This document shows positions 2,387 to 25,402 of a DNA stretch of 29,107 nt, one piece after another. The notes under the pieces are model-generated. The model saw only the letters and a list, made by a program, of their open reading frames with translations. It was not told the DNA's origin and did no database searches. The stretch is from positions 1-29,107 of IMG/VR virus record IMGVR_UViG_3300031707_001881; one strand, 5' to 3'. The number at the start of each line of letters is the position of its first letter. Position 1 is the stretch's first letter. Both the position numbers and the translations under genes were made by a program. This stretch comes from a virus.

Positions 2387-2479
2387 ATGCAAACCCAATT
2401 CATTGAAGATTTGAAAAAGGAAATTAGATTATTACGTTGGGAACTGAAACAACTAACAGAGGCAAAGAAACTATGGTAA
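2387..2479 (+). pseudogene. HNH-endonuclease tail fragment (30-residue open frame)
   Basis: ATG at 2387 opens a 30-residue frame containing FIEDLKKEIRLLRWELKQL. This matches the C-terminal tail of the HNH protein encoded at 3066-3647 (IEELKKEIRLLRLQV). The frame ends at a TAA overlapping the start of the next gene (ATGGTAA). No HNH catalytic part precedes it. It could be a relic left by loss of an HNH gene, or a short leader peptide that couples translation into the exonuclease gene. GGG just before the ATG is a poor ribosome site. Confidence 0.5.
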
Positions 2480-3069
2480 ATATCAGGTACCATGAAATCC
2501 CGGGATATGATGTAAGTTTTCCCTCGGTTACATCGTTAATAGAACTCTATGCTCAATATGGACTAATCAATGTTTTTATCCCGAAGTCTGATAACAGGGC
2601 GTCTATCGGCACTACAGCCCACGCCATTATCGCCAGGATTAACAAGGGAGGGCATGTAGACGATAAAGAGTGGGATACCCTGGACAAGAGGACTCAAAGC
2701 GCTGTCATCGCTTTCCTACGCTGGCAGAAGGACACTGGATTTAAGCCAAGAATATGCGAGGAACTACTTTATTCACTGAAGTACGGCCTGGCTGGTCATG
2801 CAGATGCGATAGGGACGATTAAACATTCCGTGGGAGTTTTCGATTGGAAGCTCGGAGATATTAAATGTGAACGCGTTAAGTATCAATTGAGCGCCTATGG
2901 ATTTTTGTACTTGGAGCAATTTCCTAATCGTACACTCAATCGAGGGTTTAGAGGCGTTCATCTTGATACAGAAACTGCGACTTACAGTGAAATGATTATG
3001 GATTTTGATGAAGCATCATACTACTTCAGAAAATTCTTAGCCTTCAAAAAAGAGGTAGGCATAATATGA
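2473..3069 (+). CDS. PD-(D/E)XK superfamily exonuclease (RecB/Cas4-like)
   Basis: A 198-residue protein. The nuclease motifs are in order: GTTAH near residue 46, EE at 96-97, GHAD at 108-111, the D-x-K core FDWK at 123-126 and QLSAY (QxxxY) at 138-142. This pattern is that of RecB-like exonucleases, which in phages usually resect DNA ends for recombination with an annealing protein; a probable one lies at 4244. I prefer the ATG at 2473 over the TTG at 2437 because the upstream stretch overlaps the HNH-tail frame and looks non-coding in this frame. AGAGG lies about 11 bases upstream. The stop overlaps the next ATG (ATATGA). Confidence 0.8.
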   Translation: MVNIRYHEIPGYDVSFPSVTSLIELYAQYGLINVFIPKSDNRASIGTTAHAIIARINKGGHVDDKEWDTLDKRTQSAVIAFLRWQKDTGFKPRICEELLYSLKYGLAGHADAIGTIKHSVGVFDWKLGDIKCERVKYQLSAYGFLYLEQFPNRTLNRGFRGVHLDTETATYSEMIMDFDEASYYFRKFLAFKKEVGII

Positions 3070-3647
3070 CAATTAAACTCGGCACGATGGTTAGGGGTAC
3101 CGATATAGGTTTGAAAGATAAATACCATTACTGGGTTCGGCATTCCTGTATAGGTTGTGGTAAAGAACGATGGGTTATGTTACGGAACAGGAAACCCCAA
3201 AATTCGAAATGCTGTTCGTGTGCGAATAAAAAGGAAATGCCGAGAGGTTCTGCATCTAAAAGTTGGAATGGGGGACATCACATTACAAGAGGATACGTGA
3301 GAATCTATATTCCCTCAGATGATTTCTTTTTCCCCATGGCTGGTCATAGATGTTATATCCTTGAGCACCGTCTCGTTATGGCGAAGAAGCTAGGCAGATG
3401 TTTGCAGAAATGGGAGCACGTGCATCACAAGGGAATACGTTATGCCGACATCAGAAACAAGAGTGATAATCTAGATGACAATTTGGAACTTACCACAGTA
3501 GGAAGCCACAGTAGGGAGCACAGCAAAGGCTATCGGGACGGCTATGCTAAAGGCCTTATTGATGGCAGGAATCAACAGATAGAGGAACTGAAAAAGGAAA
3601 TCCGATTGCTCCGGTTACAAGTAAATCGTGAGGTAGGGATACTATGA
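3066..3647 (+). CDS. HNH endonuclease with N-terminal zinc ribbon and coiled-coil tail
   Basis: A 193-residue protein. The N-terminal part has CIGC (28-31) and CCSC (49-52), a zinc ribbon. The HNH core is EHRLVMAKKLGR (100-111), HVHHKG (118-123) and DNLDDNLELTTVGSHSREH (134-152), typical of free-standing phage homing-type nucleases. Residues 165-193 form a short amphipathic tail (IDGRNQQIEELKKEIRLLRL) that recurs without its gene at 2387 and 15936. It overlaps both neighbours by ATGA, so it is embedded in the early operon rather than sitting as a recent lone insertion. Likely role: DNA nicking or cutting, self-spread, or packaging support. Confidence 0.85.
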   Translation: MTIKLGTMVRGTDIGLKDKYHYWVRHSCIGCGKERWVMLRNRKPQNSKCCSCANKKEMPRGSASKSWNGGHHITRGYVRIYIPSDDFFFPMAGHRCYILEHRLVMAKKLGRCLQKWEHVHHKGIRYADIRNKSDNLDDNLELTTVGSHSREHSKGYRDGYAKGLIDGRNQQIEELKKEIRLLRLQVNREVGIL

Positions 3648-4081
3648 AGCTCGCCGAAATCTACGCACAAATTCCAGCCTCCACTTGCCCACCTAATTGT
3701 GGTGAGTACTGCGGTATTCTATGGCCTAGCATGGCTGAGATAAGAAATATTCAAGCGTGGTGCGATGGAAAACATATTGAGTTCAAAGATTTCAATATGT
3801 TCGTAGGCTTGGAGTGCCCATATCTTGATAATGAGAAACGATGCACTATCTATCCAGTTAGACCTTTCCTCTGTCGCATCGCTGGCGTGAGTTCCGACTT
3901 ACCGTGTCCGCTAGGTAAAAATGTTCCCAAGAGAATATTAAATCATGCTCAAAGTGATTATCTATACACGCAGATTTACTTACGCGGTAAAGAGAAACCG
4001 CGTACTGAAAAACATAGGAAATTATTGAGGGAAATTCTAAAGGAGGCGAGTAATGTCAAACGAGATAGAACGGGGACCTAG
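3644..4081 (+). CDS. YkgJ-family cysteine-cluster protein
   Basis: A 145-residue protein with cysteines at 15, 19 and 23, and the block CPYLDNEKRCTIYPVRPFLC (58-77), then another Cys at 88. The C-x8-C-x-IYPxRPxxCR pattern is the signature of YkgJ-type proteins, which are thought to hold a metal or Fe-S cluster. Function is not established for the family. The start overlaps the HNH stop (ATGA). The last residues overlap the next small gene, whose AGGAGG lies inside this gene. Confidence 0.75.
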   Translation: MKLAEIYAQIPASTCPPNCGEYCGILWPSMAEIRNIQAWCDGKHIEFKDFNMFVGLECPYLDNEKRCTIYPVRPFLCRIAGVSSDLPCPLGKNVPKRILNHAQSDYLYTQIYLRGKEKPRTEKHRKLLREILKEASNVKRDRTGT

Positions 4082-4229
4082 AGACGAGCCTAAAATCACT
4101 ATTGAGATACGTCCTGGACGGTGGGGAAAGATATTTCATCTGTTCGATGGATACGGAGGAGAGGTACGATTCCCACAAAAGGACGCTGTCAAGATGGCCA
4201 AGCAGATACTCAAGGAACAAAATAAATAG
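4053..4229 (+). CDS. Small unknown protein
   Basis: A 58-residue protein (begins MSNEIERGPRDEPKITIEI). AAAGGAGG sits 7-8 bases before the ATG, a strong site, which supports it as real although it is short and overlaps the preceding gene by 29 bases. It is predicted to be mostly beta strand followed by a basic C-terminal helix. No family recognised. Confidence 0.6.
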   Translation: MSNEIERGPRDEPKITIEIRPGRWGKIFHLFDGYGGEVRFPQKDAVKMAKQILKEQNK

Positions 4230-4243
4230 GAGGTTAAAATCAC

Positions 4244-5599
4244 ATGGCAATAGCAAAACAACCACCGAAGGCAACAGCCAAAGCAGTAGCAAAGGCGAAT
4301 GACCAGGCAATGCAGGATAAGGCTAGACAGAAGCAGATGGTACCGCTCCCAGCGGAGTTCAAGGCACTCGAGATAGTACGGCAGCGCGTCCGGGAGATAC
4401 GAGAGTTTATCGCTCGAGGTCTTTTGGAGAAGGGCGTTGACTACGGCAGGATACCGGGCGTAAACAAGGATATGCTCTTCAAACCAGGCTGCGAAATGCT
4501 CTTATTGAATTATTGTATCGTGGTGGACCCGCCGGAAATAGACGATAAGAGCGACTTTGAAAAGGGCATCTTCCGCTACAGGATTATGCTCCGTGGCTAT
4601 GACAAGGAAACTCGTACCTATGTAGGCATGGGAGTAGCCTCATGCAGTTCATTCGAGACTAAATACCGCTATCGCTGGTTATCATCATATCAATTACCCG
4701 ATAGCATGAGGATTTTGGGTTTTAATGCGGGAACAGGCAAGTTTGACCCTGAGATACTCAAAAAGGTTTGGGTAGCTGATAAAGGCGATGCTGCCTTTCG
4801 TTTTAAGAAAGTTGGAGAAAGTTCTTACCCTCAATGGCGGATTGAGAATCAAGATACCTGGGATTTAGAGAATACCATACTGAAACAAGGTGTTACTCGA
4901 GCGCTGCGGGCTCTCACCCTCAATGTTACCGGCGCTGACCGTCTCTTTATCAACGAGAAGGATTTGGAAGCGCTCGGAATGTCGGACCTAGACGATACCG
5001 ATTTTGTTGAAGGCGAATATAAAGAAGTGGACTCGGAAACAGGAGAAATTACCACATCGGAGAAACCCACTCAGGCAGCAGCTCCGACTCCAGCGCCAGC
5101 TCCTAAAACAGCAACTCCAGCGCCAACTCGGGCAGATACAGGAGGTGAGCCGACTCCGGCACCACGTCCGTTATCTTCTCCGACTACACAAAAACCACAG
5201 GAACACCCATGTCCGAAACACCCCGGGCAAGAGTTTAAGAACTATCCGACAAAGGCTGGCGGTACCGTATGGGCACATAAGACAGGCATGGGCTCGGACG
5301 GAAAGCCTACATGGTGTTTTGAGGATGAGGTTTTGAAAGAACAAAAAGCACAGGCACAAACACCGGCTCTGGCACCTGATGATATGGACGCGGTTGATGT
5401 TAAGAACAATGAGGAGTTTTTGTCTGTACTCAAAGAGTTAGAGGAGAAGTTGGGCTGGCATGGTGAGCAGCTCAAACACTTTCTCGAAACTAATTACCCT
5501 ACGTCCGGCACCGATGTACGTGATTTGCCGGTAGCTGTCCGTAGGCCACTGCTCAAAGACCTTCATGCGCTTTGGAAGTCCGGCCTAGTAACCAAATAA
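4244..5599 (+). CDS. Probable single-strand annealing / ssDNA-binding recombination protein
   Basis: A 451-residue protein. Residues about 60-240 contain LEKGVDYGRIPGVNKDMLFK followed by PGCEMLL, then YRIMLRGYDKETRTYVGMGV and NTILKQGVTRALRALTLNVTGA. This set is common in phage proteins found beside recombination genes, and I infer a single-strand annealing role; the exact family name is not certain. A Pro/Ala/Thr-rich linker runs from about 270 to 320. A CPKH...WAH...WCFE group near 321-365 looks like a zinc module, and a helical C-terminal domain follows. AGGAGG lies upstream of the ATG. Its position after an exonuclease fits an exonuclease/annealase pair. Confidence 0.6.
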   Translation: MAIAKQPPKATAKAVAKANDQAMQDKARQKQMVPLPAEFKALEIVRQRVREIREFIARGLLEKGVDYGRIPGVNKDMLFKPGCEMLLLNYCIVVDPPEIDDKSDFEKGIFRYRIMLRGYDKETRTYVGMGVASCSSFETKYRYRWLSSYQLPDSMRILGFNAGTGKFDPEILKKVWVADKGDAAFRFKKVGESSYPQWRIENQDTWDLENTILKQGVTRALRALTLNVTGADRLFINEKDLEALGMSDLDDTDFVEGEYKEVDSETGEITTSEKPTQAAAPTPAPAPKTATPAPTRADTGGEPTPAPRPLSSPTTQKPQEHPCPKHPGQEFKNYPTKAGGTVWAHKTGMGSDGKPTWCFEDEVLKEQKAQAQTPALAPDDMDAVDVKNNEEFLSVLKELEEKLGWHGEQLKHFLETNYPTSGTDVRDLPVAVRRPLLKDLHALWKSGLVTK

Positions 5600-6029: not shown

Positions 6030-6386
6030 ATGCCAAGACCGAGGTTAGAACATGAAAACGTTTTGCGAATCCGGCCTCAGGAGCTAAAGAAGCTAACCAT
6101 ATTCCAGCTAGGTATGCTGGTAAAGTTAGCTTCTATGGCTGCGGGATCGCCCAGGTCCGGGTATGTCTGTGGGAGCTCCGGCGCTCCGCTCACGCTTGAG
6201 CAAGTAGCCGAGGAACTGAAAACTACCTACAGCTTGGTGAGTAAAAACGTGGAACTGCTACAAAATGCCGGCTTCATCGTTTTATCGGATAGCGGTATCT
6301 CAATAATCAACTGGTCCCGGTGGCTGGATACGCGGACGGCCTACCAAAGAGAGCTAATGCGGAGACGAAGGAGGCAAACACAATGA
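6030..6386 (+). CDS. Winged-helix DNA-binding protein (replisome-organiser-like)
   Basis: A 118-residue protein. Residues about 55-100 (LTLEQVAEELKTTYSLVSKN, then VELLQNAGFIVL) form a helix-turn-helix followed by a wing, as in the N-terminal domain of phage replication initiators. The C terminus ends in a very basic tract (RRRRRQ). It lacks the C-terminal helicase-loader domain of full-length DnaD/O-type proteins. It begins one base after the preceding stop and lies just upstream of the ATPase gene, so it may recognise the repeat array at 7956-8109. That link is inference. Confidence 0.6.
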   Translation: MPRPRLEHENVLRIRPQELKKLTIFQLGMLVKLASMAAGSPRSGYVCGSSGAPLTLEQVAEELKTTYSLVSKNVELLQNAGFIVLSDSGISIINWSRWLDTRTAYQRELMRRRRRQTQ

Positions 6387-6718
6387 GCGATTATCAATGC
6401 CCTAAATGCAAGTCCGGCAACATCAGTAAAGAGGACACACGTATCCGTTGTTTCTCTTGTGGATTTTTTGAGAATTTAGAGGACTACCCGATAGCCAGAC
6501 CAGCCCCAGTGATTTATGCTCTGCCGGAGCAACTACAGAGTCTTGAGGATAGAGTGCAAAATGTTGAGGAGTTAGTAGCAACCCCAGGTAGCGTGCCATA
6601 TCAGTTCCGCCATCAGTTGCAACAAATCAAGGGGGAATTAGCATATCTTAGAACCAATGCCAAACCTATTAAGCCGCCAAAGAAACAAAAGGCTGGATTC
6701 AAAGAAATCGAGGTTTGA
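6383..6718 (+). CDS. Zinc-ribbon protein with coiled-coil segment
   Basis: A 111-residue protein. I chose the ATG at 6383 because GGAGG lies 8-9 bases upstream and it forms ATGA with the preceding stop; a longer in-frame start at 6320 would overlap the winged-helix gene by 67 bases. CPKCKSG (6-12) and CFSCG (24-28) form a zinc ribbon. Residues 55-95 (LQSLEDRVQNVEELV, then QLQQIKGELAYLR) are heptad-like. The C terminus is lysine-rich. Possibly a primase-like zinc-binding accessory protein, but no catalytic part is present. Confidence 0.65.
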   Translation: MSDYQCPKCKSGNISKEDTRIRCFSCGFFENLEDYPIARPAPVIYALPEQLQSLEDRVQNVEELVATPGSVPYQFRHQLQQIKGELAYLRTNAKPIKPPKKQKAGFKEIEV

Positions 6719-7966
6719 TTGTCAAAACCTCAAATCACCGAACTCGCAGACGGCTACGAGTATAACTGGACTGACGAGAAGCTCATCATTAAGGCTTCCC
6801 GGGTCCGTGTTCATACGTCTGACGGTAGAGTAACAGGTGAACTTCTTATTACAGGGCAGAATAATAAAGCTATCTACCCACAAACTTCATTCAATTTTAC
6901 CTCAGACCGCACCCGTGGTAGTTTAATTAAGACGCTCACAGAGAGAGGTGGACAGTGGAAGTGGGATGATATTATCAACCAACTTTGCCTTAGTGTAGTA
7001 GAGAGAGCGCGGCAGGGTGAGCCAGTTCAGGAGTTATGGACATGTGATGAAATTGAGGCTCCAGAGTTTCTTTTGGAACCTCTTATTTATAAGGGCTTGC
7101 CAACTGTGATATTCGGCGAGAAAGCAGTTTGCAAGTCTACAATCTCACTTTTAGTTTATTCCTGCCTAATCTTGCCTTGGACTGACAATCCTTTATCGTG
7201 GAAAGCACCAGTTCACCCTGTTAAAGTTTTACTCGCTGATTGGGAGGTCAATGCGGATGTGGCAAAGTATAATCTAAAACGAATACAACAAGGTATGGGT
7301 TTACCACACTTTCCTCTGATTTACCGGCGCTGTAAATTGCCTCTGGTAGACGACATCGAGCAGATAAAGAAGCATCTCGACGACACTGGTGCTGAGGTCC
7401 TTATTATTGACTCTCTAGGTTTTGCGGCTGCTGGCGACCTGAACAATGCAGACCAAGCGTTGAGATTTGCCAATGCCCTGCGGCAACTAAATTGCGCTGC
7501 CTTTATCATCGCTCAAACGAGTAAGGATAGGAAGTCCAAGGGCAAATCAGTATATGGGAGCACCTTCTTTGAGTATTTTAGCCGTAATATCTTCGAGCTA
7601 CGAAAGACTAGAGAGGATAACGAGGACTCATTTGACATCGCTATCTTCAATACGTACTGTAATCTTGGAAGGCGGGCGAAACCTATGGGTTACCATATCC
7701 AGTTTGACGACATCAAAAAAACTGTGCATATAGAGCAAGCCGAGATTACGGCGGCAGACTTGGTTGAACGCCTTGGTACATGGTCGAGGATATACGATAA
7801 ATTGAAAACTCAAACATGGAAGGCAAAGGAACTGAGCGATGAGTTAGGCATATCTCTTGACCTTGCATCCCGGACGTTAAAACGGTACCAACAAAAAGGC
7901 CAAGTGGCTAAGTTGCCGGATGGCTCCTGGGGATTGGTCGCCAGGCATGAGGAGGTGTCTAGTTAA
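6719..7966 (+). CDS. RecA/RepA-like AAA ATPase with C-terminal winged helix
   Basis: A 415-residue protein. The start is a TTG directly after the previous stop, with GAGG 6 bases upstream; no ATG lies near. Residues 133-141 (GEKAVCKST) are a Walker A loop in which the usual Gly before Lys is Cys. VLIID at 227-231 is Walker B, and FIIAQTSKD follows as a sensor-like strand. This is the plan of RepA-type hexameric helicases and related phage ATPases. The end (KAKELSDELGISLDLASRTL) is a winged helix for DNA binding. The TGTCTA array begins within its last codons, so it probably acts in replication initiation. Confidence 0.7.
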   Translation: MSKPQITELADGYEYNWTDEKLIIKASRVRVHTSDGRVTGELLITGQNNKAIYPQTSFNFTSDRTRGSLIKTLTERGGQWKWDDIINQLCLSVVERARQGEPVQELWTCDEIEAPEFLLEPLIYKGLPTVIFGEKAVCKSTISLLVYSCLILPWTDNPLSWKAPVHPVKVLLADWEVNADVAKYNLKRIQQGMGLPHFPLIYRRCKLPLVDDIEQIKKHLDDTGAEVLIIDSLGFAAAGDLNNADQALRFANALRQLNCAAFIIAQTSKDRKSKGKSVYGSTFFEYFSRNIFELRKTREDNEDSFDIAIFNTYCNLGRRAKPMGYHIQFDDIKKTVHIEQAEITAADLVERLGTWSRIYDKLKTQTWKAKELSDELGISLDLASRTLKRYQQKGQVAKLPDGSWGLVARHEEVSS

Positions 7967-8352: not shown

Positions 8353-8747
8353 TGGCAAACGAACCAAAATTCCCGCTACATTTCAAATGCCCGAGCTGTA
8401 AGAGTGATAAAGGCACCTTGCAGTTGTGTTCTCAAAAGGAAGTGGCCGAAGGCCTCTTGCCTCAGGACGTGCCGGTGGCCACAGCGCATCATAACATACT
8501 CCTGGCTGATGAAGGGAAAATTCAATCTGGAGTTCTCGCTGGTAAAAAGGCCCGGATGCTCTTTTATTTCGCTGACATTTGCTCCAAATGCGGCAACCAG
8601 TATATTTACCTGGTGGAGATGAAGGACATTATAATGCCGGCTGGCGCTCTGCACGGTCAGGCCCCGCGTATAGTATTGCCAGGCATGGGCCCGCTTCCGC
8701 CGGACATTGGAAAGAGACACTCGAGAGGCGATGGCGGAAGTATTTAA
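8352..8747 (+). CDS. Zinc-ribbon protein, function unknown
   Basis: A 131-residue protein with CPSC (13-16) and CSKCG (77-81), a split zinc ribbon holding a beta-rich domain (AGKKARMLFYFADICSKCGN). The C terminus is rich in Pro and Gly. It starts at the last base of the previous stop and its last 17 bases overlap the VRR-NUC gene. Confidence 0.6.
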   Translation: MANEPKFPLHFKCPSCKSDKGTLQLCSQKEVAEGLLPQDVPVATAHHNILLADEGKIQSGVLAGKKARMLFYFADICSKCGNQYIYLVEMKDIIMPAGALHGQAPRIVLPGMGPLPPDIGKRHSRGDGGSI

Positions 8748-9033
8748 GCTCACCGAGAAGGACTTTCTGCGGCAGATTAAGGACCTTGCCAAGATTTGCC
8801 ATTGGCGGGTGTATCATCCTTTCTTGAGTAAATGGAGTGAGCGGGGATACCCTGATATAACCCTAGTACGTCCCCCACGCCTCATCTTTGCAGAGTTAAA
8901 GGCTGAAAAGGGTGTGCTGAGTGAAAGCCAATGTGAATGGGCGGAGTTGTTACAGGCCTGCCCTGGTGTTGAGTATTACTGCTGGAAGCCGTCTGATTTT
9001 GATGCTATAGTGGAGATATTGAAGCGATGCTAG
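8731..9033 (+). CDS. VRR-NUC domain nuclease
   Basis: A 100-residue protein from the ATG at 8731, chosen over an upstream in-frame TTG at 8707 because GAGAGG precedes it and the core domain needs no more sequence. RGYPDITLV (38-46), FAELKAEKG (53-61) and the following ESQCEW give the D, E-x-K and Q residues of the VRR-NUC branch of PD-(D/E)XK enzymes. Stand-alone VRR-NUC proteins in phages act on branched or flapped DNA such as Holliday junctions. The end overlaps the next gene by 7 bases (GCGATGCTAG). Confidence 0.85.
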   Translation: MAEVFKLTEKDFLRQIKDLAKICHWRVYHPFLSKWSERGYPDITLVRPPRLIFAELKAEKGVLSESQCEWAELLQACPGVEYYCWKPSDFDAIVEILKRC

Positions 9034-9359
9034 ACAAGAGACTACTTAAGAAGTTTACCATTGAAGATTGTAACCAGGTTAGAAGAGAACTTGGGGAATC
9101 CTTGCGGCTGACAAAGGAACGGTTAAGACGGTTAAAAAGGAAAGAGAAGGAGAATCCCTCCTGGGCGGCCTATGATAAATATGCTGACGCTTTTGTAGGG
9201 ATAGATATTCGGATTGAAGAACAGCAGGCCGTCAGGGAAGAAATCGAACAGGATATTATATTAGTAGATGGGCGAGCCTGCGAAATAATTGCAGAATCAA
9301 AGCGAGCGGTAGAAAAAGAAAGAAAAGATGGCGAAATTCAGTTGGAGTTGAAGATTTGA
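9019..9359 (+). repeat. Direct repeat, copy A (341 bp, contains a gene)
   Basis: Starts at TTGAAGCGATGCTAGACAAG and runs through the small gene; the same sequence, diverged, occurs at 10729-11069. The first 18 bases are the end of the VRR-NUC gene, and they recur in copy B where there is no VRR-NUC gene. This suggests copy B was made from copy A. Confidence 0.85.
9027..9359 (+). CDS. Helical phage protein, first of two paralogues
   Basis: A 110-residue protein, highly charged and almost wholly helical (RLTKERLRRLKRKEKENPSW, then the strongly conserved AAYDKYADAFVGIDIRIEEQ). By hand, about 87 of 110 residues match the copy at 10737, with the differences concentrated in the last 30 residues. 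The ATG overlaps the VRR-NUC stop by 7 bases. Coiled-coil oligomerisation is likely; function unknown. Confidence 0.7.
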   Translation: MLDKRLLKKFTIEDCNQVRRELGESLRLTKERLRRLKRKEKENPSWAAYDKYADAFVGIDIRIEEQQAVREEIEQDIILVDGRACEIIAESKRAVEKERKDGEIQLELKI

Positions 9360-9393
9360 GTAAGCCAATAGTTGAAAGCAGGGGGATTAAGAT

Positions 9394-9885
9394 ATGAATA
9401 ACGAATTGCCGCCGCATGACATCGAGGCTGAACAAGCAGTTCTCGGCTCCATCTTAATTGATAATGTGGATATGGGGAGAATTTCCGCATTTCTGAGGCC
9501 GGAAGATTTCTTTAATCCCGAGAACCAGTTAATCTATGAGGCCTGTATCGCCATTAACCTGCATGCTGTGGGGATAGACCAGATAACCCTGGCACGAGAA
9601 CTCTCCGGAAGGGGGAGGTTGGAGGAAGTTGGTGGGACTGCTTACCTAAGTCATTTGATTTCAATGGTTCCTACTTCACTTCACATTGTATATTATGCGC
9701 AGATAGTTTCTAAGTTGGCTATGTCCCGACGCCTTATTAGCGCTGGCAATCAAATCATGGCGCTCGGTTATGACCCCGACATTGAAGTTGATGCGGCCCT
9801 AGAAAGGGCAGGGGATATTCTGGGCAAAGTTAGACAGTTATACAATTCCAGGTACGAAACACAAGGCGGCGGGGTGGAGATGTGA
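9394..9885 (+). CDS. Isolated DnaB helicase N-terminal domain
   Basis: A 163-residue protein. It opens with LPPHDIEAEQAVLGSILIDN, the start of bacterial DnaB, and continues with FLRPEDFFNPENQLIYEA, GGTAYLSHLISMVPTS and YYAQIVSKLAMSRRLISAGN, all parts of the DnaB N-terminal and linker region. It stops where the RecA-like ATPase would begin, with no trace of it downstream. The N domain forms the collar and binds DnaG primase and loaders, so this protein could compete with or recruit host DnaB, or be the N half for the separate ATPase at 6719. An AGGGGG ribosome site precedes the ATG. It lies in a cassette between two direct repeats. Confidence 0.85.
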   Translation: MNNELPPHDIEAEQAVLGSILIDNVDMGRISAFLRPEDFFNPENQLIYEACIAINLHAVGIDQITLARELSGRGRLEEVGGTAYLSHLISMVPTSLHIVYYAQIVSKLAMSRRLISAGNQIMALGYDPDIEVDAALERAGDILGKVRQLYNSRYETQGGGVEM

Positions 9886-9922
9886 TGACACCTTACTTCC
9901 AGGATAAGAGGATAAAAATCTA

Positions 9923-10696
9923 ATGGCATTAGAACAGTTGGAACTAGAAACAGGACTTAATAAGGTGGAAGTTGCTATCACACTACTCCAAGCATGGGAA
10001 CCGCCAGAAGGTTATTATTTAGCCTTTAGTGGGGGTAAGGATAGTGTAGCGATTTATGCTCTTGCCCAAAAAGCGGGAGTAAAGTTTGATGCTCATTATT
10101 GTGTTTCTCCGATAGACCCGCCACAGATTTACCAGTTTATCAAAGAGAATTATCCCGATGTTCAATGGGATTTTCATGCTAGGGGATTTTGGAAGTTGGT
10201 TGTCGAAAAGGGATTGCCAATGCGAAACGTAAGATGGTGTTGTGAAATTATCAAGGAGGCAGGCGGGAATGGGCGAACAATAATAATGGGGAATCGCAGA
10301 GCAGAAGGTGGCAAACGAAGGAAACAATGTTATGTGGAAACTCCTGAACAGCGTGCCAAGAGTCCATATCGCCAATCGACTAAAACCTTTTTACGCCCCA
10401 TCATCAATTTCGACAACTTTGACATCTGGCAATATATCCGAGAAAACAACCTGCCCTATTGTTCGCTTTACGATGAAGGATTCAAACGACTTGGTTGTGT
10501 GTTATGCCCCTTTTCTCGGCAAATAGAACGAGAGGAACTTTACTTTCCAAAGATAGTAGCTAACTGGAAGCGGGCTTGTGAACGTATTGTAATGAGACAT
10601 AAAGCCAATGGAAATATGACTAGGAAGGGTAAACCATTGAAACATTGCTTTGAAACAGGCGAGGAATTATATCAATGGTGGACAAGCCGAAAATAG
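9923..10696 (+). CDS. PAPS-reductase-like PP-loop protein with cysteine cluster
   Basis: A 257-residue protein. SGGKDS at 36-41 is the PP-loop that binds ATP or adenylated substrate. Cysteines at 106-107, 180, 192 and 195 (PYCSLYDEGFKRLGCVLCPF) match the four-Cys set of phosphoadenylyl-sulphate reductase and DndC-type proteins, where they hold a 4Fe-4S cluster. Phages often carry this family; roles in DNA or RNA modification are proposed but not fixed. No other Dnd-type genes are seen here, so phosphorothioation cannot be claimed. It shares a cassette with the DnaB-like gene. The ribosome site (AAGAGG) is about 10 bases away. Confidence 0.85.
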   Translation: MALEQLELETGLNKVEVAITLLQAWEPPEGYYLAFSGGKDSVAIYALAQKAGVKFDAHYCVSPIDPPQIYQFIKENYPDVQWDFHARGFWKLVVEKGLPMRNVRWCCEIIKEAGGNGRTIIMGNRRAEGGKRRKQCYVETPEQRAKSPYRQSTKTFLRPIINFDNFDIWQYIRENNLPYCSLYDEGFKRLGCVLCPFSRQIEREELYFPKIVANWKRACERIVMRHKANGNMTRKGKPLKHCFETGEELYQWWTSRK

Positions 10697-10728
10697 CAGT
10701 CAAACGCTGTAGTCAAGGGGTTGTGGGG

Positions 10729-11069
10729 TTGAAGCGATGCTAGACAAGAGATTACTTAAGAAATTTACCATTGAAGATTGTAACCAAGTTAGAAGAGAAC
10801 TTGATGAGTCTTTGAAATTGACCAAAAAGCGGCTAAGGCGATTGGAAAGGAAACAGTCTGAGAATCCTGCCTGGGCAGCCTATGACAAATATGCCGATGC
10901 CTTTGTAGGTATAGACATTCGGATTGAAGAGCAACTAGCCGTCAGGGAAGAGATTGAGCAGGATATTATATTAGTAGACGAGCGAGCCGTGGAACTTACC
11001 GAACGAGTGAAGCAACTTGCGGAAAAAGAAAGACGGGAAGGCGAAGTCCAGTTAGAGCTAGGACTTTAA
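10729..11069 (+). repeat. Direct repeat, copy B (341 bp, contains a gene)
   Basis: Second copy of 9019-9359, the same length by hand. It begins with TTGAAGCGATGCTAG, the end of a VRR-NUC gene that is absent here, after 32 bases of non-coding DNA following the PAPS-reductase-like gene. Confidence 0.85.
10737..11069 (+). CDS. Helical phage protein, second of two paralogues
   Basis: A 110-residue paralogue of the gene at 9027. Residues 1-22 are identical and residues 46-81 differ at one position, while the C-terminal third has drifted (ELTERVKQLAEKERREGEVQ). Conservation with local divergence suggests that both copies are still expressed and may have partly separated roles. There is no good ribosome site beyond the copied GAAGCG, because the VRR-NUC frame that would couple it is missing. 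Confidence 0.7.
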   Translation: MLDKRLLKKFTIEDCNQVRRELDESLKLTKKRLRRLERKQSENPAWAAYDKYADAFVGIDIRIEEQLAVREEIEQDIILVDERAVELTERVKQLAEKERREGEVQLELGL

Positions 11070-15463: not shown

Positions 15464-15640
15464 ATGCCAAACAAGAAAAAAGTACGTTGTCACGGTTGCG
15501 GCGAGGTCTTTGACACAGAGGCAGAATCAATAATGACGCCCTGTCCGAAGTGTGGCATGAACCTCAAGGTAAACAAGCGGTGGGAGCCGGAAGGTGCGCA
15601 GTATGTGACGCCTGCAGACATGGATTTGAATAAATACTGA
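15464..15640 (+). CDS. 58-residue zinc-ribbon protein
   Basis: CHGCGE (9-14) and CPKCGM (27-32) form a zinc ribbon with spacing like that of DnaJ-type or FYDLN-type fingers. AGGAGG lies 8 bases before the ATG. The C terminus (VTPADMDLNKY) is unrelated to its neighbour. The stop shares a base with the next start. Confidence 0.65.
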   Translation: MPNKKKVRCHGCGEVFDTEAESIMTPCPKCGMNLKVNKRWEPEGAQYVTPADMDLNKY

Positions 15641-15936
15641 TGACTAAACGTAAGAACGTAGAAGTCAAAAAGAAAGCGCGACGCGTGATTGACCTGGGCC
15701 GGCTTCCGGCAAGTAAGGTAACCGTTGATGATGTTATTGAGGCGAATGATATAAACGAACTCCTGGCGGAAGTACAGTCAAAGCGAGCTAGTATTGACGG
15801 TCTACTTGTCGCCTGGCGAAATACTAATGGCACGATAAGTTACCGTTTCGTGAAAGCCACCGACACCACAGTTGTGGCTATATGCGAAATCGTTAAACAG
15901 CATTGCATACAACAAAGTTGGCTTAGAGAGGACTAA
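15640..15936 (+). CDS. Small unknown protein
   Basis: A 98-residue protein. The N terminus is basic (KRKNVEVKKKARRVIDLGR) and the rest reads as an alpha/beta fold (ASIDGLLVAWRNTNGTISYR). Start and stop are coupled to the previous gene (TGATGA). The stop lies directly before the HNH tail relic. Family not recognised. Confidence 0.55.
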   Translation: MTKRKNVEVKKKARRVIDLGRLPASKVTVDDVIEANDINELLAEVQSKRASIDGLLVAWRNTNGTISYRFVKATDTTVVAICEIVKQHCIQQSWLRED

Positions 15937-16028
15937 TCGATGGCCGAAATCAACAAATTGAGGAACTGAAAAAGGAAATCCGTTTACTACGGTGGCAGGT
16001 GAATCATTCCTATACTGACATCAGATAA
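15936..16028 (+). pseudogene. HNH-endonuclease tail relic before the large terminase
   Basis: In one frame these 93 bases read IDGRNQQIEELKKEIRLLRW followed by QVNHSYTDIR and a TAA at 16026-16028. This is the C-terminal tail of the HNH protein at 3066 (IDGRNQQIEELKKEIRLLRL, then QVN). DNA identity is also high at 3558-3628. There is no start codon or HNH core, and the frame begins right after the previous stop. It is best read as the remains of an HNH gene that once sat beside the terminase, a common site for HNH genes. Confidence 0.75.
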
Positions 16029-17475: not shown

Positions 17476-19312
17476 CCAGTTTTCGGCCACGAGTATAGGT
17501 GATGCGCCGGAAGCTGAAATAATCGCTCGTGACGTTGAAACAACCGAAAACGAAAGCATAGCCAAAGGCTTACAAGAACGTAAGTTCGACGAAGGCACTA
17601 TCAAGAAACTAATTGAGAATTTCGATAGTGTCCACAAAGGCCTACACGAGCGTCAGGACGAGGATATGAAACTCTACGAGCTCGAGGATTTTGAACTCGA
17701 TATTTTCAGCGACAGTATGACCTTCAATGAACCGCGCCACATGGGAGACATGGTAATTCAACTTTGCAATGGTTCTATCCTCATGCTCACCGTTGAAACC
17801 GAGGAACAGGACCAGGACCAGAACGCCGTTATTGAGCAATTCCACCTGTCCTTTTTGAAGTCTGCGGACGAGTGGCTTGGCCAAATGCTCATGTCGCAAT
17901 TGAAACAGGCGCTTTCATTCTATGGCGCCGTCCGGGGTTGGATGGTGCTTCGTGTAACCATTTACCGAGACGCAAATGGTAAATTGGTGCCGGGCCTTAT
18001 GGCATTAGACCCGCGAGAAATGAAATGGGGTGTTGGTATGGGTGGTTTTATATGGGTAGCACAGGAGACGTGGAGAACTGCGGAAGATATATTACTTGAC
18101 TACGGTAAGAGGGCGGACGGCGAGGTTGGTAAGATTACTGATTTTTGGAGCGAGAAAGCGAATGTAATCCTGTTAGATGACAAAGAAATTGAGAGATACC
18201 CACACAATATCGGCTATCCGCCATTTATTATCTTTCCATGCTCTAATCAGCCGAAGGTGATGGGCAGCGATATGAGTTCTGCAAAGAAACATTTAAGAGG
18301 ATGGGGCGAGTCAGTCTATGCAGCTAACAGAAAATTGTACCCGGTGCTCAATAAGATTTTGAGTATATGGTTATCACTCGTAGTTAAGGCACATAAGCCC
18401 GGTGGTTTTGTTGTAACGGACGACGATACTATCAACGTCGAAGAGTTACCCTATGGTAGTGGCACTGCCATGAAACTGCCTATCGGTTCGTCCTGGGTGC
18501 CGGTGCAACCGGCTGATATAGCGCGGAGTACTCCGGAGTTATTCGGCCAGATTGCAGCGGCCGTACAGCGTGGTGGCATATCCTGGGTGACGTATGGCCA
18601 ACTCTGGAAAGGCCAAGAACTCTCGGGTAATGCGCTCGAGGAACTCAAACAAGGATTGGGCAAGATTATCACTCCGATACTGGACACACTCGGTAGAGTA
18701 TTTCAAAGAGCTGCTCGCATGGTAGAAGAGCAATTTATGTCTTACGACGAAGCATGGGAAGCGGTAGGCTATGATACCAAAGGTAAACACTTTTTTAAGA
18801 CTATAGAGCCGGACGATATTTCATCTAACCATGAGATACGCTTTGAATTTCTGTCAATAACTCCACAGGAAGAGGCTGCCAATATAGCCAAGGCGCAGAT
18901 GATGAAGTCGGCGGGGCTGGCGGACGACGAGTTTATTGATAAGGAAATTATGAAATTCCAAGACCCGGCAGGCATTGAGGACCGCAAGTTAATCATGCAA
19001 GGCAAAGAACTGAGTCCGAAGATTATGCTGCTCGAGATAATTAAGGCGTATCGGAAACGTGGCAACGATATGTACGCCGATATACTATCAACCGAATTGG
19101 AGAAGGCTTTAATGATGGAGCAAATGCAACAGCAGCAGCAGGCCATGTTGCCGGCAGGTCAACCAGGAACTCCGCAAAGAGCTCTCCCGCCAGGTGAAGC
19201 ACCAACGCCGGCGCCAGCATTACCAGAAGGTTTTAGTGGACCGAGGGCACCAGCAGCAACGCAACAACCGAGGACACTGATAGCTGGACCGCCGGCACCA
19301 ACTAGGAGGTAA
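17453..19312 (+). CDS. Portal protein
   Basis: A 619-residue protein, the right size for a portal and in the right place after the large terminase. LYELEDFELDIFSDSMTFNE, VILLDDKEIERYPHNIGYPP and GQLWKGQELSGNALEELKQG (a stem and crown-type helical stretch) fit the fold. The C-terminal 60 residues are Gln- and Pro-rich and probably flexible. It forms the DNA channel at one vertex of the head. Its ATG lies inside the terminase gene, with GGAGGG upstream. Confidence 0.8.
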   Translation: MPKQYSDSQFSATSIGDAPEAEIIARDVETTENESIAKGLQERKFDEGTIKKLIENFDSVHKGLHERQDEDMKLYELEDFELDIFSDSMTFNEPRHMGDMVIQLCNGSILMLTVETEEQDQDQNAVIEQFHLSFLKSADEWLGQMLMSQLKQALSFYGAVRGWMVLRVTIYRDANGKLVPGLMALDPREMKWGVGMGGFIWVAQETWRTAEDILLDYGKRADGEVGKITDFWSEKANVILLDDKEIERYPHNIGYPPFIIFPCSNQPKVMGSDMSSAKKHLRGWGESVYAANRKLYPVLNKILSIWLSLVVKAHKPGGFVVTDDDTINVEELPYGSGTAMKLPIGSSWVPVQPADIARSTPELFGQIAAAVQRGGISWVTYGQLWKGQELSGNALEELKQGLGKIITPILDTLGRVFQRAARMVEEQFMSYDEAWEAVGYDTKGKHFFKTIEPDDISSNHEIRFEFLSITPQEEAANIAKAQMMKSAGLADDEFIDKEIMKFQDPAGIEDRKLIMQGKELSPKIMLLEIIKAYRKRGNDMYADILSTELEKALMMEQMQQQQQAMLPAGQPGTPQRALPPGEAPTPAPALPEGFSGPRAPAATQQPRTLIAGPPAPTRR

Positions 19313-21724: not shown

Positions 21725-24700
21725 ATGGACATTTGGGATGAGATAATCAGTTGGTTGCGAAGAACACCGCCATTAAGTGAAAAGGCGAAAACCGCTATTG
21801 CTGAAAATCCAAACGAGTTTCAACGTCTTTATCAGCAAATTAAGGTCTATACACCTGAACCTGGTTGGGGTGTGAAAGCACCTACTTATAAACCACGTCA
21901 AGTTGAGATGCGTCCTGCAACGGGACAAGAAAGACCTGTGGAGTTACCACCGTATCAACCCGACATTACAGGCAAACTTCCGAGTGATGTGTATGGATGG
22001 TTGGCGAAAGTGCCAAGTTACGCGCATCCTTATGAGACAGGTGTGGCGGCACCAGTTAGGAAGGGCATATTAGAGTGGTGGCCTGCCCCAGAACCGACAA
22101 CCATTGACACCGAAAAACTCCGAACCAATTATCCCAAATTGTATAAAGACCTAACTGATGAGCAGATTATATCGTCGTTTAGCGGTGGACTTTATGGTCT
22201 ACCATCTGCTACAAAACAAGAGAAGATTAGGCAGATGGTGGCTACCGAAATCCCATCTTTGCCATTGTGGGTTATGCCTATAGGTGGTGAAGCAAAGACT
22301 GGCAAGGTGGCTTTAGAGCAAGTAACCAAGGGTGCTGAAAAGCAATTAGCCAAAACTACTGCAAAATACCCCGAAGTATTTGATAGACCGGTTGAGGAAG
22401 TGTTGAGTAGGATTGATGATTTAACTTATGAGCAGTTGAGGCATTTTCGAGCTCGGCTTGGAGCGATACTGTCAAAGGGTATCAGAGGTGTTGAAACCAA
22501 GGGGTCGGAGAGGTATCAACAAATATCAAACCTGTGGGACGAATTTAACACGGCATTAAAGGCCAAGGAATACGGATTGGAAAAAGCAGGAGCAGCCGAG
22601 GAAGCTGGCAGATTATTACGAGGAGGTTTACAGGATCGGGCGAAAGCTGTTTGGAACGACCTTAGTTGGCGTAATTATATAATGCGCGGAGATTTCCCGG
22701 AGGCGGTGCCGGTAGACACATTTAAGAAGTGGAATGGTGGTCGTGCCCCTTCGAGCACATCAATCATTCAAAAGGGTCCGAATAAAGGCAAGGTACCAAC
22801 CGACATAGCTGCTGATGATATGCTTTCTGAGCTAGGTTACCGTGGAACGGCTACCAAAAACGCTATTGACCAACTAAAAGATGATTTCGATGTGCTTCAC
22901 AAGTTGTATATTCAACAGGGTGGTGAGGTTTTTAAGACGGTAGTAACCAGAGGACCGAGAACTGCAAAAATGCCAAAGTCACGGAGAGGCATAGAGGTTA
23001 CAGAGATTATTCCTGAAGCCCCTGTAATGCCACCAGTTGAGGCACAGAGAGGTGTAACGGCTGAAAAGGTATCAGAAGGTGTTGGTGGCATGAAACCGCC
23101 GCCAAAACCACCGCCTACAACTGTTGCACCGACTCCACCTGTACCGCCTACCGGAAATGCAGTACAAAAAGTGCAGGGGATATTACCTACTATCAAGAAA
23201 TTGACCTCGGAATATGCGGAGAAATTGCATAAGGTACGTTCTCAGAGACTTGGTGCCGCTAAAGGTGCCGGAGAAGTTGCTGGCGGTGGAGAAAAAGGAC
23301 TGTATGCTGAATTAGGGCAATTGAAGGGCAAGGTAGAAAAACCAACTTTTACTCCCACCTATGACAAATATACTCAGGGTGAAAGAGATGAATTATTCAA
23401 CCTCATTGATAAATTCGAGTTTAAGGACGGTCTTGGCGAGGTTCTACCGCATCAAGGTTATACCAGAATAGAAGTCAAAAGGGCTTTCAGGGATATTCTC
23501 GATGGAGTAAAACCAACTCCGCAGAACTTCAAATATCTTGAGCAGGTATTCGGTAAAGAGGCCATGAAACCATTGCTGAAATTTATGAGCCCGAAGTGGG
23601 GCGAGTATGTCACTGAACTATTCTACAATTCCATCCTGTCTAATCCTAAGACGCATATAGTCAATTTTGTCTCTAATACACTAACTGCGGTGATGTCCCC
23701 ATTTGAAAAAGGTGTAAGTGCCTTGGTGGAAGTCCCCTTAGCTCTTATACAGAGAAGACCAAGGCAGAGGTTTTTCGGTGAGGTAGCACAGGAGATTTTT
23801 GGTGTTCTGCGTGGTATACCTGAAGGAGTGCGAGCCGCCTTTAAGACATTAAAAAGCGGGCAAACCGTTGAGCAGTTAAGTAAATGGGAACAACGTACCG
23901 AGGCATTCAAAGGAAAAGCCGCCATAGTAATTAAATTGCCCACCCGTTTTCTCGAAGCTGCCGATGCTTTCGGCAGGGGAATAAACAGAATGATGGCTTT
24001 GAGAGCACAGGCCTATCGAGTGGCTTCTAAGGAAGGATTGAAGGGTGAGAAATTTCTGGCACGTTTGAACGAATTGATGATGAATCCTACAGAGGAGATG
24101 TTGGAAGAAGCTAGTAGGATTGCCGAGTATAGACTTTTCCGGCAAGAACCTGGTGCAGTGGTTAGTAAATTGATGAAGTTACGAGATGCTGAGGTATGGG
24201 GTATTCAACCATTACGATTTATCATACCTTTTTTGAGAACTCCTGCCAACCTAGTTAAATTTGGATTAGAACGTTCACCACTCGCTGTTTTCAATGTTCC
24301 AATGTGGAAAAATGTTGCTCAAAAGAGTCCCGAAGCTGCCGAACAAATTGCCCGGTGGGTAATGGGTTCGTCCATAGCCGCTACGATAGGGATTTATGCG
24401 GCAGATGGTAAGATTACTGGGGCTGCACCTAAAAATACATTGGAGCGTGATGCTTTTTATAGAGCCGGCAAGCAACCATACTCTGTTAAAATTGGTGATG
24501 TTTGGATAGCCTATCAAAGACTAGAACCCTTCAATCAGGTTTTAGCACAAGTCGCTGCGATAGTGGGAGCTATCAATGATAAGAAGTCAAAAGATGATAT
24601 TTTCAATCAAGCGCAACAAGTCGTCTCTACTATCGGTAATAACCTTATTAGTCAAACCTATATGAGTGGCATTGCTAATTTGATAGGAGCTTTTGAAGAC

Positions 24701-25402
24701 CCTGTAGGGGAAGGCGAATATTTACTTCAGCAATTGAGTACAGGATTTATTCCTTATAGTGGTTTGATGCGTGGTTTATCACAGGCGGTAGAACCAACCT
24801 ACCGCAAACCAAGTAATATACCAGAGACTATAATGACGGCAATACCAGGCATGGCAGGGAAAGTAAAACCGAGGACAAACATCTTTGGAGAGGTTTCAAA
24901 AAGGACAACACCCTGGTACAGTCCTTTCAATATTTCACCTGAAAGACAAACTGACCTAGATAAAGAGTTGGAAAGATTAGGGATTACTATTGGTTATCCA
25001 AGTAGCATCATTGGAACAACAAAATTGGATGAACAACAAATTTACGAATACAGGAATTTCGTGGGCCAGGCATTGATGCGGGAATTATCCACTGCTATCG
25101 AAAGTTCTACATATAAAAGACTAGGTAGTGATGTTGCGAAGTCTGATTATATAGACAGAGTTATCAGAGATACAAGGGCAGATGCTAGAGAAGAATTTGC
25201 GGAAATGGTAGGAATATCCATGCAAACAGAGAGGCAACAAAGAACTCCAACAGCAACTCCATCTATGGTGCCGGAGAGAGAGAAGGTGCCGACCCCGAGT
25301 AATATTTACACTCCGGGATATTTGCCGCGGAGAACACAAACTACTCCGTCGGCTCCGGGAACCACACCGAAAAGAAAATTACCGACGTTAGGAAGTAAAT
25401 GA
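21725..25402 (+). CDS. Very large internal-virion-type protein
   Basis: A 1225-residue protein. After a Pro-rich N terminus there is a helical part (to about 450), a Pro linker (KPPPKPPPTTVAPTPPVPPT, about 457-476), then a large helical region with LFYNSILSNPKTHIVNFVSN near 635-650. That motif is common in giant phage proteins of the polyvalent or internal-virion kind. Amphipathic segments near 770-960 could contact membrane. I infer a protein carried in the head and possibly injected with DNA, or a minor head protein; no enzyme motif is seen. It takes about an eighth of the window. Confidence 0.6.
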   Translation: MDIWDEIISWLRRTPPLSEKAKTAIAENPNEFQRLYQQIKVYTPEPGWGVKAPTYKPRQVEMRPATGQERPVELPPYQPDITGKLPSDVYGWLAKVPSYAHPYETGVAAPVRKGILEWWPAPEPTTIDTEKLRTNYPKLYKDLTDEQIISSFSGGLYGLPSATKQEKIRQMVATEIPSLPLWVMPIGGEAKTGKVALEQVTKGAEKQLAKTTAKYPEVFDRPVEEVLSRIDDLTYEQLRHFRARLGAILSKGIRGVETKGSERYQQISNLWDEFNTALKAKEYGLEKAGAAEEAGRLLRGGLQDRAKAVWNDLSWRNYIMRGDFPEAVPVDTFKKWNGGRAPSSTSIIQKGPNKGKVPTDIAADDMLSELGYRGTATKNAIDQLKDDFDVLHKLYIQQGGEVFKTVVTRGPRTAKMPKSRRGIEVTEIIPEAPVMPPVEAQRGVTAEKVSEGVGGMKPPPKPPPTTVAPTPPVPPTGNAVQKVQGILPTIKKLTSEYAEKLHKVRSQRLGAAKGAGEVAGGGEKGLYAELGQLKGKVEKPTFTPTYDKYTQGERDELFNLIDKFEFKDGLGEVLPHQGYTRIEVKRAFRDILDGVKPTPQNFKYLEQVFGKEAMKPLLKFMSPKWGEYVTELFYNSILSNPKTHIVNFVSNTLTAVMSPFEKGVSALVEVPLALIQRRPRQRFFGEVAQEIFGVLRGIPEGVRAAFKTLKSGQTVEQLSKWEQRTEAFKGKAAIVIKLPTRFLEAADAFGRGINRMMALRAQAYRVASKEGLKGEKFLARLNELMMNPTEEMLEEASRIAEYRLFRQEPGAVVSKLMKLRDAEVWGIQPLRFIIPFLRTPANLVKFGLERSPLAVFNVPMWKNVAQKSPEAAEQIARWVMGSSIAATIGIYAADGKITGAAPKNTLERDAFYRAGKQPYSVKIGDVWIAYQRLEPFNQVLAQVAAIVGAINDKKSKDDIFNQAQQVVSTIGNNLISQTYMSGIANLIGAFEDPVGEGEYLLQQLSTGFIPYSGLMRGLSQAVEPTYRKPSNIPETIMTAIPGMAGKVKPRTNIFGEVSKRTTPWYSPFNISPERQTDLDKELERLGITIGYPSSIIGTTKLDEQQIYEYRNFVGQALMRELSTAIESSTYKRLGSDVAKSDYIDRVIRDTRADAREEFAEMVGISMQTERQQRTPTATPSMVPEREKVPTPSNIYTPGYLPRRTQTTPSAPGTTPKRKLPTLGSK

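Follow-up and report, generated by a model that had tools for sequence, protein, structure and literature searches.

A probable old paralogous pair flanking a DnaB N-domain gene and a PP-loop gene in the early region of a tailed phage

Paralogous gene pairs and moron insertions are known from mosaic tailed phages, and the locus described here likewise combines a duplicated small early gene with a mobile, metabolic-type PAPS gene. It differs from those pairs in that the duplicated family is without relatives in the collections searched. Methanosarcina virus MetMV carries a PAPS moron (PHROG 424) of the same PP-loop family, with 42% identity over 98% of the length. The flanking genes of our locus are absent from MetMV, which shows just a weak match to another gene of the window, at 984-2138. 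Free-standing DnaB N-terminal domains of phages are grouped in PHROG 20000 (132 positions, annotated as unknown function), whose members, like the protein studied here, are short and lack the helicase motor. Our protein of 163 aa also has part of the linker, and its match to PHROG 20000 (E 6.8e-10) covers just 47 residues. A literature search on free-standing DnaB N-domains and on phage gene duplications returned nothing specific. Recombination between diverged genes has been measured for lambda Red, where 22%-diverged oxa genes gave 9.0e-5 compared to 7.3e-3 for identical genes, about 1% of the latter value, and the host RecABCD pathway in the same assay gave 8.7e-7 (PMC2327257, Table 1). That system resembles the present one in a divergence of about 20%, and direct repeats as well as an exonuclease gene are present in our phage. 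However, the lambda values were obtained on constructs of about 800 bp, whereas no recombinant was seen at our locus.

The DNA analysed, called the window in the following, is a virus record of 29,107 bases. A repeat search revealed a direct repeat at 9019-9359 and 10729-11069, about 80% identical at the DNA level, with a start-to-start spacing of 1710 and a 300-bp core of 80% identity in direct orientation. Comparing one copy with the other by blastn gave 79.3% identity across 329 bp (E about 1e-78), a similarity that exceeds chance by far. Two perfect matches of 23 bp, 9019-9041 and 9054-9076, connect the copies, and no third copy was found within the window. Both copies consist essentially of a 110-aa gene on the plus strand, copy A at 9027..9359 and copy B at 10737..11069. 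In the coding parts, 256 of 330 bases and 87 of 110 residues are identical. These results bear out an earlier note on this DNA, which had claimed a direct repeat of 341 bp and had arrived by hand at the same count of identical residues. Its further claim that the copies bracket an isolated DnaB N-domain and a PP-loop protein also holds, as the matches to PF00772 and PF01507 both lie inside.

The substitutions between copy A and copy B are distributed over the three codon positions as 19/15/40, and both reading frames are intact. Using the Nei-Gojobori method with Jukes-Cantor correction, we obtained a dS of about 1.2, a dN of about 0.13 and a dN/dS of about 0.11. Synonymous sites are near saturation. 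With synonymous divergence this high and dN/dS this low, the copies are old, and both look selected and separately evolving. Intact frames and purifying selection on both copies are what an old paralogous pair should display; an excisable cassette should display near-identical copies kept so by exchange, which a dS of about 1.2 contradicts. The copies look like maintained genes rather than a fresh repeat that is poised to lose its cargo. We consider it probable that they represent an old, diverged paralogous pair that encloses two unrelated genes in the early (replication/recombination) cluster of a tailed phage. One small gene, whose helical product has about 110 residues, would have been duplicated, or else recombination with a related phage would have supplied a second version. 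Purifying selection would then have retained both copies in a run of genes on the same strand, where they would have diverged, while the DnaB N-domain and PAPS genes between them would be ordinary mosaic cargo. The order of these events, the co-transcription of the genes and the role of the protein are inferred. Since no single-copy relative is known, duplication in place and import of a second copy cannot be distinguished. The pattern of divergence matches the alternative that the earlier note had itself offered, an old stable duplication.

Directly before copy A lies a gene for a VRR-NUC or Holliday-junction-resolvase-like nuclease (8707..9033, plus strand). Its Pfam VRR_NUC match (E 0.0011) is below the Pfam cut-off, and the nuclease identity is supported by matches to PHROG 93 ‘endonuclease’ (E 4.9e-9) and PHROG 5702 ‘Holliday junction resolvase’ (E 5.8e-6). 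The earlier note had reported that the last 18 bases of this gene recur at copy B. The recurrence is real, with a length of 15 bases (9019-9033) instead of 18. Because the reading frames of the nuclease gene and copy A overlap, seven of the 15 bases (ATGCTAG) already belong to the start of the copied gene, which leaves TTGAAGCG (9019..9026, plus strand, repeated at 10729-10736) as the sole repeated bases 5′ of the start codon of copy A. The C-terminus of the nuclease can be aligned with relatives to about its end, and this end, including the eight repeated bases, is probably native to the nuclease gene. The shared tail had also been taken to show the direction of copying. On that view, copy A would have given rise to copy B by a recent transposition that took the tail of the nuclease gene along. 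Eight native-looking bases that are coding in the nuclease gene and recur at copy B do hint at A as the source, but they stand at the place expected of a conserved translation leader, and such a leader or a short, later conversion tract would account for them equally well. As a near-saturated synonymous divergence rules out a recent copy, we regard this history as quite improbable. Nor was there support for TTGAAGCG as a leader that recurs in this phage: no other exact match before an ATG was found in it, and near-matches occurred at chance level.

The first gene between the copies (9394..9885, plus strand) encodes the 163-aa protein mentioned above, a DnaB N-terminal domain (PF00772, E 1.9e-31) that stands free and includes part of the linker. 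NCBIfam DnaB models matched this protein over their first ~160 positions only; the C-terminal RecA-like motor domain is absent and there is no helicase domain. Elsewhere in the window (6719-7966), the phage encodes an AAA_25 (RepA-like) ATPase that lacks a DnaB N-domain, and together the two proteins possibly form a split helicase/primase-recruiting arrangement. Scans with the DnaB N-domain protein and with the AAA_25 protein found no relatives of the locus. The second gene (9923..10696, plus strand) encodes a PP-loop/PAPS-reductase-like protein of 257 aa (PF01507, E 2.5e-25; PHROG 424, E 6e-35). The protein falls short of the cut-offs for a true PAPS reductase (CysH), with 31.1 bits for TIGR02057 (254.2 needed) and 41.4 for TIGR00434 (165.1 needed); it is a member of the PP-loop/PAPS_reduct superfamily only. 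Its best match in the defence library was BrxP (E 1.5e-15). Relatives with 58-65% identity are present in four other records (L010, L011, L012 and L014). Naming the neighbours by reading the sequence, we found the PAPS relative directly after a terminase-like gene in L010 and downstream of a restriction-like gene in L014; in L011 it follows an HNH-like gene, and a relative of window gene 6320-6718 lies upstream. Neither the duplicated gene nor the DnaB N-domain gene was found beside the PAPS relatives in other viruses. Occurring at unrelated sites without the repeat or the DnaB N-domain, the PAPS gene behaves as a mobile moron.

This mobility among unrelated viruses bears on the order of events. 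Homeologous recombination at a resident copy A could have brought in copy B from another phage, together with the PAPS gene and perhaps the DnaB N-domain gene, which would make the copies xenologues and the block an insertion. Such a history is a sub-case of the old paralogous pair, with the events in another order. The high synonymous divergence between the copies would fit it, as would the similarly low G+C content of the PAPS gene and both copies (42-43%, compared to 47% for the window). On the other hand, an equally low G+C content is seen in several further genes of the early region, and no donor phage with a copy adjoining the PAPS gene was found. We consider an imported copy B possible but doubtful.

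Relatives of the 110-aa family were sought in IMG/VR, GTDB genomes, phage and plasmid records, PDB sequences and, by fold, in BFVD, and only a near-identical contig was found. This contig, IMGVR_UViG_3300032401_000081 (L001/L004), is the sole other record with the duplicated family. Its match begins at window position 10235, within the PAPS gene, and continues to the end of the window, beyond which the contig extends for about 5.8 kb. Copy B is unchanged in it and no other copy is present, the contig starting past copy A. Over the 17 kb compared, the two records show six differences, none before window position 18454. Five of the six fall within 40 bases (18454-18493) of the gene at the portal position, as if a short tract had been exchanged by recombination, and the sixth is at 24789. 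Terminase relatives of about 91% identity are found on two 4-kb contigs (L005 and L006) that end short of the locus. The duplicated gene was absent from the fetched flanks of more distant, about 25%-identical terminases.

Homologous direct repeats flank the block, as an excisable cassette would require, and the repeat could serve as a recombination handle. A crossover by a phage annealing system or by host RecA would then delete the DnaB N-domain and PAPS genes, and the phage population would be polymorphic. The geometry that the earlier note described for such an event is right: 1,710 bases would be lost, and one hybrid copy would remain joined to the nuclease gene. An exonuclease gene lies nearby (2437-3069; PHROG 298, E 1.7e-16). 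A 451-aa protein (4244-5599), which may resemble a phage annealase, matches only PHROG 10048, annotated as unknown function. The direct orientation and the two perfect 23-bp matches are favourable to a crossover, and lambda Red recombines genes diverged by 22% (PMC2327257), but its substrates measured about 800 bp compared to about 340 bp here. The copies are also less diverged at their 5′ end, as they would be after exchange: in the first 22 codons, 3 of ~13 synonymous sites differ compared to about 40 of 58 in the rest (Fisher p 0.004, with a boundary picked after looking at the data). Conserved codons were non-significant both in a run test (p 0.27) and in a window test (p 0.10). The signal of gene conversion at the 5′ end is suggestive; the copies may have exchanged sequence, and the pair may not be wholly inert. 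However, frequent exchange should homogenise the copies, whereas they are strongly diverged. No deletion form was seen in viral or genome collections, where no other record spans the locus. It seems unlikely to us that the repeat acts as such a handle, although occasional deletion of the block by phage or host recombination enzymes is possible. That the phage uses the diverged copies as a switch, deleting a module of helicase-domain and PP-loop genes and each time retaining a hybrid copy that still functions, strikes us as very improbable.

Returning to the old paralogous pair, we next consider what its protein may do. The 110-aa protein gave no match in Pfam, NCBIfam or PADLOC and no credible match in PHROG. 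An AlphaFold model of copy A shows two long helices at low confidence (mean pLDDT 70.7, pTM 0.32). The pair is likely to have an accessory role in the early cluster, as small helical proteins whose two copies have specialised; this role is inferred from the position in this cluster, right after a nuclease gene, and from the helical prediction.

The phage is otherwise poorly annotated and has very few relatives in IMG/VR. Two short stretches of the window, at 15929-16006 (77 nt at 82%) and at 2402-2451 (50 nt at 66-76%), match the 3′ end of an HNH endonuclease gene (3066-3647, counterpart at 3551-3627). The first of them lies between a 98-aa gene (15640-15936) and the terminase gene, and is absent there in L006 and seemingly in L005; L006 has an intact HNH gene (567-1172) one gene upstream. 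These stretches resemble remnants left behind as HNH genes were gained and lost. The portal-position gene of L006 is split over two overlapping frames (3083-3343 and 3280-4278), so that either the gene is frameshifted or the contig is misassembled. The gene at 21725-25402 encodes an internal virion protein of 1225 aa (PHROG 6651, E 2.7e-38).

Should reads reveal a deletion form, the locus would show homeologous recombination at 20% divergence taking place in nature. As it stands, it advises caution, in that a long direct repeat alone is not evidence of excision and the synonymous divergence marks this repeat as old. Read as the probable old pair, the locus would clearly exemplify the retention of paralogues in the early region of a phage, here on either side of a PAPS-type moron.
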